A DNA stretch of 64,000 nucleotides from Halorarum salinum (GTDB lineage: Archaea > Halobacteriota > Halobacteria > Halobacteriales > Haloferacaceae), in assembly GCF_013402875.1 (NCBI RefSeq), contig NZ_CP058579.1, positions 3,844,001 through 3,908,000 of the forward strand. The letters are read 5' to 3'. Under the pieces are notes generated by a model, which made no database searches, had not been told where the DNA came from, and worked only from the letters and a program-made list of their open reading frames with translations. Shown in pieces: positions 44,141 to 46,663 of the stretch (position 1 is the first letter of the stretch; the number at the start of each line of letters is the position of its first letter). Made by a program: the position numbers and the translations under genes.

Positions 44141-45334
44141 TCAGCGGATGACGTCGAGGCCGTTGTGCTGCTCGCGCTCCTCGCGGCCGCCGTCGGACTG
44201 CCAGGCGGCCTGGGAACTGCCGTTCGACGCGGCGTTCGTCCCGACGTCGAGGTCGCCGCTCCCGGGGTCCTCGATGCTGGCGCGTGACTTGTCCGCCTGC
44301 TTCTGCGTGCTCGGGCCGAGCACCTGGGCGCTCTGGACGCCCGTCATGATGGCCATCACTCGAACCTTGCCCTTGTACTCGTCCTGGATTCGCGCGCCCC
44401 AGATGACGTTGGCGCTCGCCTCCAGGCGTTCGGTGATGTTGTCGGCGATGCCCTCGGCCTCCTTCAGGGTGAGGTCCGGGCCGCCCGTGATGTGGACCAG
44501 ACCGCCGCTGGCGCCGCGGTAGTCCACGTCGAGCAGCGGGTGGTTCATCGCGTCGTTGACGACCTCCTGGGTCTTGTTCTTGTCCTGGGTCTCGCCGACG
44601 AGCATCACGGCGACGCCGCCCTGGTTCATGATGGTGGACATGTCTGCGTAGTCCAGGTTGATGAGCGAGGGCTGGGTGATCGTCTCCGAGATACCCTTCA
44701 CGGTCTCGGCGATGATCTGGTCCATCACCGAGAACGCCTTGCCGATCGGGAGGTTCGGAACGTAGTCCAGCAGCCGGTTGTTGTCGAGGACGATGATCGA
44801 GTCGGCCTCGTTGCGGAGGTTCTCGAGGCCCTCCTCGGCCTTCACGGTGCGGGCGCGTTCGACGTTGAACGGCGTCGACACCATGCCGACGACGATCGCA
44901 CCCTGCTCCTTGGCGATCTTCGAGACGACCGGCGCCGCGCCGGTGCCCGTCCCGCCGCCCATCCCGGCGGTGACGAACACGAGGTCCGCGTCGCCGAGCA
45001 CCTCCTTGATGGTCCCCTGGGCCATCTCGGTGGCGCGCGAACCCATGCTGGGGTCGCCGCCGGCGCCGAGCCCCTGGGTGAGCGACTTGCCGACGAGGAT
45101 CTTCGTGTCGGCCTCGATCATCTTTAGGTGCTGCTTGTCGGTGTTGATGGCGACGGTCTCCGCGCCCTCGACGCCGATGTTGTACAGCCGGTTGATGGTG
45201 TTGTTGCCGGCCCCGCCCGCGCCGACGATGACGATCCGGGGCTCCCCGAACTCGTCGTCGTCGTCGCCGGTCTCGGACATCTGACGCTTTTCGGCCTCCG
45301 CGTTCTCGAGGGCGTCCTGGACGATGTCCTGCAT
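44141..45334 (-). CDS. ftsZ2: Cell division protein FtsZ2
   Basis: A tubulin-like GTPase that forms the mid-cell ring; in haloarchaea FtsZ2 drives constriction. The GTP signature GGGTGTG (126-132), the [11 protein letters not shown] segment, and the T7-loop region are present, with an acidic N-terminal extension ([19 protein letters not shown]) and a C-terminus ending in GLDVIR. It is assigned to FtsZ2, not FtsZ1, because it directly follows the cdrS regulator, two bases after that stop. 397 residues, normal length. Confidence 0.94.
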
Positions 45335-45336
45335 CG

Positions 45337-45528
45337 TTACACCTTCGCCCAGCTGCGCTTGCTGCGTTCGCGGCGGGTGCGCTCGCCCGAGCCGTCGGTC
45401 TGCTCGTTGAGCATGTCGCGAACCGCCGAGCGGATCGCCTCGCTCCGGTTCGGGAACTCGCCCGTCTCGACCATCTGTTCGACCTCCTCGATCTGCTGTT
45501 TGGGTATCCGTAGTGTCACACGCTCCAT
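45337..45528 (-). CDS. cdrS: Ribbon-helix-helix cell-division regulator CdrS
   Basis: A 63-residue ribbon-helix-helix DNA-binding protein: strand [10 protein letters not shown], helices [12 protein letters not shown] and [14 protein letters not shown]. It matches CdrS, which in Halobacterium and Haloferax controls ftsZ2 and other division genes from this operon position. The two genes are coupled (two-base gap). The promoter region carries repeated GTAAGACG sites, likely targets of CdrS or a partner. The C-terminal 18 residues are a basic tail. Confidence 0.9.
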
Positions 45529-45543
45529 TGTTGCATTCCCCCG

Positions 45544-45691
45544 GTAAGACGGCGAGCACGCGTCCGCGTGCCTCGGATCCGGGGCCGTCCGGGCGGCGTC
45601 CGCCCGGTGTCATCGGCCCGTAAGACGTTCCGTCTTACGCAGCCGTAATCACAGACGGATGTGATATAAATGTACCGGGGAGTGTAAGACG
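45544..45691 (-). promoter_or_regulatory. cdrS-ftsZ2 promoter with repeated GTAAGACG operator
   Basis: The minus strand has TTTATATC (45664-45671) as TATA, predicting a start near 45640. Immediately downstream lies GTAAGACG-TTC-CGTCTTAC (45620-45638), an exact 8-bp inverted repeat. The same 8-mer occurs upstream at 45684-45691 and inside the leader at 45544-45551. The leader is about 110 bases, long for this genome. Spacing fits repression at the start site plus an upstream site. Confidence 0.65.
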
Positions 45692-46429
45692 CTCCTCCGC
45701 GGCGCCGTCCGCCGGTAGGGTCTTCCTACCGGGTCGTTCCGGTCGCGCGCCGGTCCGGGAGCGGCTGCCCCGTCGGACCGGCAGACGCGCGTACGACGGC
45801 CAGCACCCGCGGTTTCGACCGAAACCCGTAGCCCCTGGGCCCGTAATACCGCCCGATGGGCCGATCGTTTCTGACCGTCGTGTCGTCGGCCGTTTACTCG
45901 GGGCCCTCGTTTCAACCCTCCGGCCCGGGCGGTCATCGCATCCGGTTCGTTGGCTCCGTGGGTCGTGGCCCCGGCGTTTACGGCGGCGAACGTACGCCGT
46001 CGCGGAGGATATCACACGACGGTAGCTGACCGAACGGCCGTCGACCGAGTAGCGGTGTACGTTCGCGTACACGTCACGCGCGATGAAGAAGTATACTAGA
46101 GAGTCAGCCGCGTTGACGGTCACGTCGGCGGCGGAGCACTGCGCCGAACGAAAACGGCCGACGCGACGGCGTCGGAAACCCGGCCTCCCGATAAGACGAC
46201 GTGAGGGCCGTGTAAACACGGTCGAGACGGCCGAATATGCGTGTCGGCGAGGTCGCGGGACGTCGTCCGCCGATTCGAACGCGGTGTCGACGCGTCCGGT
46301 GGTACGACGCCGCCCGCCCCGGCGGAACCCACCGTCGGCCGTCCGTCCGACGCCCGTTCCGGTACCCCACGTCAGGGCCCGGCAGTAGCCGGCGAACTGC
46401 CTTTGCGGGTTCCGAACTGAGTCGGCCCC
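45692..46429. other. Long intergenic region between cdrS and a PRC-barrel gene
   Basis: Nearly 740 bases without a credible gene. It contains CCGGTAGG-GTCTT-CCTACCGG (45712-45732), GTGTACG-TTCG-CGTACAC (46055-46072; an RNA copy would form a UUCG-capped hairpin) and CCGTGT-AA-ACACGG (46208-46221). Composition is somewhat less G+C-rich than coding regions. A non-coding RNA, or a large control region for division genes, are both possible; nothing distinguishes them here. Confidence 0.5.
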
Positions 46430-46663
46430 ATGGAGCACTTCACGGAGACGCACGTCGGCATGACGGTCGTCGACCAGCGGGGCGAACCGATCGGGAAGAT
46501 CGCGGGCATCGAGGGGGGCACCGCGCGACTCAAGCCCGGAACGGGCGTCGAGTCCCGGATGGGCGCGTCCGCGGACCCGGAGGTCGACGCGCTGGACGTC
46601 CGCCCCGAACAGGTCGAGGCCGTCACCGACGAGTTCGTCCGCGTGGACCTGGACGACGGGTGA
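46430..46663 (+). CDS. PRC-barrel-like small protein
   Basis: A 77-residue protein with the strand pattern GMTVVDQRGEPIGKIAGIEG (about 10-29) that marks PRC-barrel domains; the rest is a short acidic region ending VTDEFVRVDLDDG. In other proteins the barrel binds RNA or protein surfaces. No partner gene is visible: the next gene is on the opposite strand and upstream is the long non-coding region. ATG at 46430. Confidence 0.7.
   Translation: MEHFTETHVGMTVVDQRGEPIGKIAGIEGGTARLKPGTGVESRMGASADPEVDALDVRPEQVEAVTDEFVRVDLDDG

Follow-up and report, generated by a model that had tools for sequence, protein, structure and literature searches.

Little is understood of how archaea adjust the levels of the FtsZ proteins used in cell division, and the promoter of the cdrS-ftsZ2 operon raises the question of which regulator is responsible. 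ChIP of CdrL in Halobacterium salinarum found the cdrS-ftsZ2 promoter to be its only reproducible site (Darnell et al. 2020, PMC7439475), whereas CdrS ChIP-seq in Haloferax volcanii identified 18 sites, the cdrS promoter not being among them (Liao et al. 2021, PMC8406309). The window, that is, the whole 64-kb stretch of DNA analyzed here, carries this operon on its minus strand, preceded by a repeated short motif. The relevant features are the following:

44141 to 45334, minus strand: ftsZ2, starting 2 nt after cdrS (TIGR00065 ftsZ match, 401 bits)
45337 to 45528, minus strand: cdrS, a ribbon-helix-helix (RHH) regulator of 63 aa (NCBIfam NF058555, Pfam RHH_1)
45529 to 46429, no strand assigned: intergenic region, the expected place of cdrL beside cdrS, with neither cdrL nor a recognizable remnant
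45544 to 45550, minus strand: leader half-site GTCTTAC near the cdrS start codon, next to a conserved CCGGGGGAAT
45620 to 45638, no strand assigned: central palindrome GTAAGACG-TTC-CGTCTTAC (on the minus strand GTAAGACG-GAA-CGTCTTAC), an exact repeat containing the half-sites GTAAGAC-N5-GTCTTAC
45664 to 45671, minus strand: TATA element ATTTATAT, predicted from sequence
45684 to 45690, minus strand: upstream half-site (GTCTTAC), directly before the BRE/TATA region

The cdrS product belongs to the CdrS family according to the NF058555 equivalog model (121.5 bits, cut-off 100) and also matches Pfam RHH_1 (32.7 bits). On the minus strand, the elements follow one another in the order half-site (45690-45684), ATTTATAT (45671-45664), palindrome (45638-45620), half-site (45550-45544) followed by CGGGGGAAT, cdrS ATG (45528) and ftsZ2. 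With the transcription start predicted from TATA spacing only, the central palindrome would fall immediately downstream of it, and the upstream half-site is predicted to fall outside the cdrS transcript. The exact 8-bp inverted repeat, the single GTAAGACG copies at 45544-45551 and 45684-45691 and the position of the TATA element, all described in the initial annotation, were confirmed. The cdrS leaders of the window (45529-45620) and its relatives often contain a small GC-rich hairpin whose arms change (GCACGCGGACGCGTGC in the window); the leader half-site comes directly after it and is followed in turn by a conserved GGGGAAT.

By itself, the 8-3-8 inverted repeat is weak evidence and not significant. 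An exact repeat of this kind appeared in 61 of 2000 shuffles (3%) of the 902-bp intergenic region, and the window contains 12 of them. GTAAGACG occurs four times in the 64-kb window, all within 150 bp upstream of cdrS, where 1.24 copies were expected over the window and 4 of 100 shuffles reached four anywhere in 64 kb. A chance origin is therefore possible for the inverted repeat alone and is excluded by the GTAAGACG cluster together with its conservation; the array is significant because it is conserved across relatives. A genome search for the N5 form only found the 19-bp palindrome once when up to two mismatches were allowed, and a text search of the literature for a published GTAAGACG motif returned unrelated papers only.

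Conservation was assessed at the cdrS loci of 80 named haloarchaeal records, 30 genomes of the same family and 13 genomes from other families of the order; some of the 30 family genomes are the same organisms as named records, and 109 distinct upstream regions were counted. The palindrome GTAAGAC-N3/4/5-GTCTTAC is found in 109 of 109, its left half as GTAAGAC in 108 and its right half as GTCTTAC in 107. The spacer is N4 in 83 regions, N5 in 25 (including the window) and N3 in one, which places the half-site centers 11, 12 and 10 bp apart, respectively, or about one helical turn; the outer single copies in haloarchaea lack such phasing. Where a TATA element was recognized, it starts 31-38 bp before the palindrome (mode 32-34). 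A leader GTCTTAC is located 18-32 nt before the ATG in 107 of 109 loci, an exact half-site lies upstream of the palindrome in 91 of 109 and GTAAGAC occurs between the palindrome and the start codon in 80 of 109. Per 260 bp, these regions hold 3-5 exact half-sites, whereas the remainder of the same loci predicts 0.044. Repeated, conserved half-sites thus extend from the promoter region to the cdrS start codon, as in an RHH operator array. The repeated RHH-type operator proposed in the initial annotation is accordingly supported as a conserved, operator-like array across relatives, and the absence of the repeat upstream of cdrS in haloarchaea, which would have spoken against it, was not seen. 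Parts of the leader outside the half-sites are also conserved, and selection may therefore have several causes. One haloarchaeal chromosome, CP132292.1, has two very similar cdrS loci (L027 and L029); the second of them, whose cdrL frame is broken, is located close to the end of the record, and the pair may reflect an assembly overlap.

The distribution of CdrL bears directly on the identity of the protein that reads the array. In every named haloarchaeal locus, cdrL is the gene immediately upstream of cdrS, and the same holds for all compared family loci outside the window's genus. Searches with a single sequence and with a profile detected no CdrL, which would have to be encoded in the genome for a CdrL operator to function, in the three genomes of this genus (G000, G102 and G103; at least 99% complete), apart from a spurious weak match in G103 (6.5e-4); with this match included, 142 of 145 high-quality family genomes show a CdrL match. 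A cdrL remnant beside cdrS was sought by tblastn in the genus, which gave matches at chance level only. As the aldo/keto reductase gene that is the next gene beyond cdrL in relatives is still nearby in G102 and G103, cdrL seems to have been removed cleanly. Relocation of cdrL was rejected, as single-protein and profile searches of the three near-complete genomes found none and the RHH_1 proteins recovered are not CdrL. CdrL is also absent genome-wide in G187 and G228; these represent two other families, in which G271 and G244 do encode it. At the cdrS loci of G187, G228 and G177 (L221, L227 and L228), cdrL is not beside cdrS, G177 having been examined at the locus only. These absences qualify the statement that all sequenced Halobacteria encode CdrL (PMC7439475).

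The palindrome is kept in every one of these lineages. Within the window's genus, none of the 28 half-site columns varies among the three genomes, while 51 of the 157 remaining columns do (Fisher p=6e-5), at a tree length of ~0.43 substitutions per 4-fold site in ftsZ2, and the array therefore appears to be under selection without CdrL. In this genus, the array has outlived the only regulator so far shown to bind the promoter.

The sites of the CdrS regulon offer a second line of comparison. In Haloferax, a conserved CGTCGGACAGATGTCTGACG is found upstream of ftsZ1, and a whole-genome search for GTCNGAC-N4-GTCNGAC picks up this site together with another before hisB. ChIP of CdrS in Haloferax volcanii lists both genes as targets (PMC8406309, Table 1), the sites found here being assigned to these targets by gene and not by the published motif logo. 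The published CdrS motif is symmetric, spans ~20 nt and is described with its 10th nucleotide as reference (PMC8406309). Its symmetry is shared with the window array, a putative site of an RHH protein like CdrS, and the two half-sites at ftsZ1 and hisB are 11 bp apart, with the N4 spacing that is also the commonest in the haloarchaeal palindrome (83 of 109). The window array nevertheless differs from this site type, its half-sites being GTCTTAC, one base off, and its spacer N5. Across haloarchaea, the half-site at the cdrS promoter is almost always GTCTTAC, GTCNGAC being the form at ftsZ1 and hisB, which gives the impression that another protein, in place of CdrS or beside it, reads the array. 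The placement differs as well. The Haloferax ChIP sites, which exclude the cdrS promoter, are mostly located 41-110 nt upstream of transcription starts, and those thought to activate ftsZ1 lie upstream of its promoter (PMC8406309), whereas the half-sites in the window surround the promoter and the leader. GTCNGAC-N4-GTCNGAC is commoner than its reversed control, with, for example, 48 compared to 5 occurrences in the window's genome, though this is an imperfect control given that GTC and GAC are common haloarchaeal codons. The Haloferax dacZ promoters, with one good half-site and a weak partner each, are a supportive, not decisive, second check of the motif.

A related array was found outside the haloarchaea. 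In non-haloarchaeal genomes of the same phylum, 27 cdrS loci were identified, all with an FtsZ-like motif downstream, and the interval from the TATA region to the start codon of cdrS contains GTCNGAC-like half-sites, nearly all at exact multiples of 11 bp. In the 22 loci that remained after removal of near-duplicates, 85 GTCNGAC sites were counted compared to 10 in dinucleotide shuffles, with pair distances of 11 (26), 22 (31), 33 (19), 44 (12) and 55 bp (18) and at most one of each in the shuffles; some of these loci are closely related, which keeps the counts from being fully independent. In 26 of these genomes, a profile search detected weak partial matches only and no full CdrL, and CdrL has been reported to be restricted to haloarchaea (PMC7439475). 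Since a phased array is present in relatives that lack a full CdrL, the array beside cdrS probably predates CdrL, and the half-sites of the relatives' arrays look like CdrS sites.

In bacteria, dimers of the RHH proteins Arc, MetJ and NikR occupy short half-sites, repeated at intervals of about one helical turn, in a cooperative manner. Their operators differ from the cdrS array in sequence and in the genes they serve, and the likeness is drawn from general knowledge; still, 7-bp self-palindromic or near-palindromic half-sites about one turn apart would fit cooperative RHH dimers. The placement of sites on both sides of the TATA element, over the predicted start and in the leader would likewise fit a repressor. 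We propose that cdrS-ftsZ2 is controlled by a multi-copy RHH operator with the repeat at its center and that, in the window's genus, negative autoregulation by CdrS is its likeliest function (probability about 0.6), both the bound protein and the repressing outcome being read from sequence. In this mechanism, the four GTCTTAC/GTAAGAC half-sites, which flank the TATA box, cover the predicted start and extend towards the start codon, would be occupied cooperatively by RHH dimers. The bound dimers would then impede the binding or passage of transcription factors or RNA polymerase and create a repressing feedback element. In the window's genus, where CdrL has been lost, CdrS itself would be the likeliest occupant, while CdrL would probably share or dominate the array in most other haloarchaea. 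CdrS autoregulation had been suggested in the initial annotation, a plausible but incomplete reading in which CdrL, a second RHH protein, was not considered. It is favored by the 11-bp-phased arrays of organisms without CdrL and by retention of the array after CdrL loss; the CdrL ChIP result, the missing CdrS ChIP site, the reduction of FtsZ2 only to ~0.7-fold upon CdrS overexpression in Haloferax volcanii and the half-site that is one base off speak against it. The two ChIP data sets are most simply reconciled if CdrL prevails at the site wherever it is present, the main alternative being a third reader.

The array could instead be the operator of CdrL, an RHH and double-zinc-ribbon protein, with CdrS acting only at GTCNGAC sites elsewhere and the array being kept here through another protein or for a secondary reason. 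Apart from the ChIP results, which place CdrL reproducibly at no other site than this promoter in Halobacterium (PMC7439475) and leave the promoter out of the CdrS list, this explanation can draw on the half-site itself, which is GTCTTAC in haloarchaea, mostly with CdrL, compared to GTCNGAC in relatives without it, and on residue 3 of the beta-strand, an invariant K in 18 CdrL sequences compared to R in CdrS. Probable Halobacterium relatives among the compared loci, their genus being inferred from CdrS length, carry the same array at the same promoter, though no motif is reported in the part of PMC7439475 that was available. However, the same array is present without CdrL in the window's genus (three of three genomes), G187 and G228, and in the window's genus it is under apparent purifying selection; this rules out CdrL as the reader in this organism, and we consider an exclusive CdrL operator improbable. 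A third DNA-binding protein, for example another conserved RHH protein of the genome, would reconcile the negative CdrS ChIP with the CdrL-independent retention of the array. The genomes of the genus share four further RHH_1 proteins above the cut-off, one of which carries NKT(V/I)SFRV and a long C-terminal tail, but positive evidence points to none of them and the ancestral array has CdrS-type half-sites adjoining cdrS itself, which leaves such a reader rather unlikely.

The repeats might also act in the mRNA leader, where pairing of GUAAGAC and GUCUUAC would form hairpins that control translation or processing. In its favor are published data that point to post-transcriptional regulation of the operon (PMC8303175), the complementarity of the two leader copies in most haloarchaea and the hairpin into which the palindrome would fold close to the 5' end. 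Such a role is nonetheless very unlikely, because one half-site lies upstream of the TATA element and is not transcribed, the near-invariant arms (108 and 107 of 109) show no covariation, and the leader GTCTTAC is kept in 107 of 109 loci while its GTAAGAC partner is present in only 80. The 11-bp phasing in the relatives also argues against it, and no Rfam family was found for the leader. More tentatively, and with the odds somewhat against it, the array might have a history of operator hand-over. An ancestral CdrS array of 11-bp-phased GTCNGAC sites would have been re-specified to GTCTTAC when CdrL arose, each asymmetric half-site (GTC and TAC) being read by CdrL or by mixed CdrS-CdrL assemblies. 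After the loss of CdrL in at least three haloarchaeal lineages, CdrS, its specificity having widened, or another reader would have maintained the changed array.

Among archaeal systems, aCcr1 of the Sulfolobales is likewise of the RHH type and acts as the repressor of a division gene (PMC7617429, PMC12284271). It belongs to a different archaeal lineage with a different division machinery (Cdv) and is likened here by protein, not by binding site; CdrL matches the aCcr1 NCBIfam model weakly, below the cut-off. The four-site array, its phased version in organisms without CdrL and the natural lineages lacking cdrL make the control of the division operon a directly testable question.

Two further sites were observed in the window's genome. 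A one-mismatch CdrS-type site, GTCGGCCGTCCGTCCGAC, is located at 46334-46351 on the plus strand, 79-96 bp before the small ORF 46430-46663, which is PRC-barrel-like by appearance; among the CdrS ChIP targets of Haloferax is a PRC-domain gene, HVO_1691 (PMC8406309). An exact GTCNGAC-N4-GTCNGAC lies ~170 bp upstream of a CetZ-like tubulin gene (L258, G000:C1:1514015-1514032).
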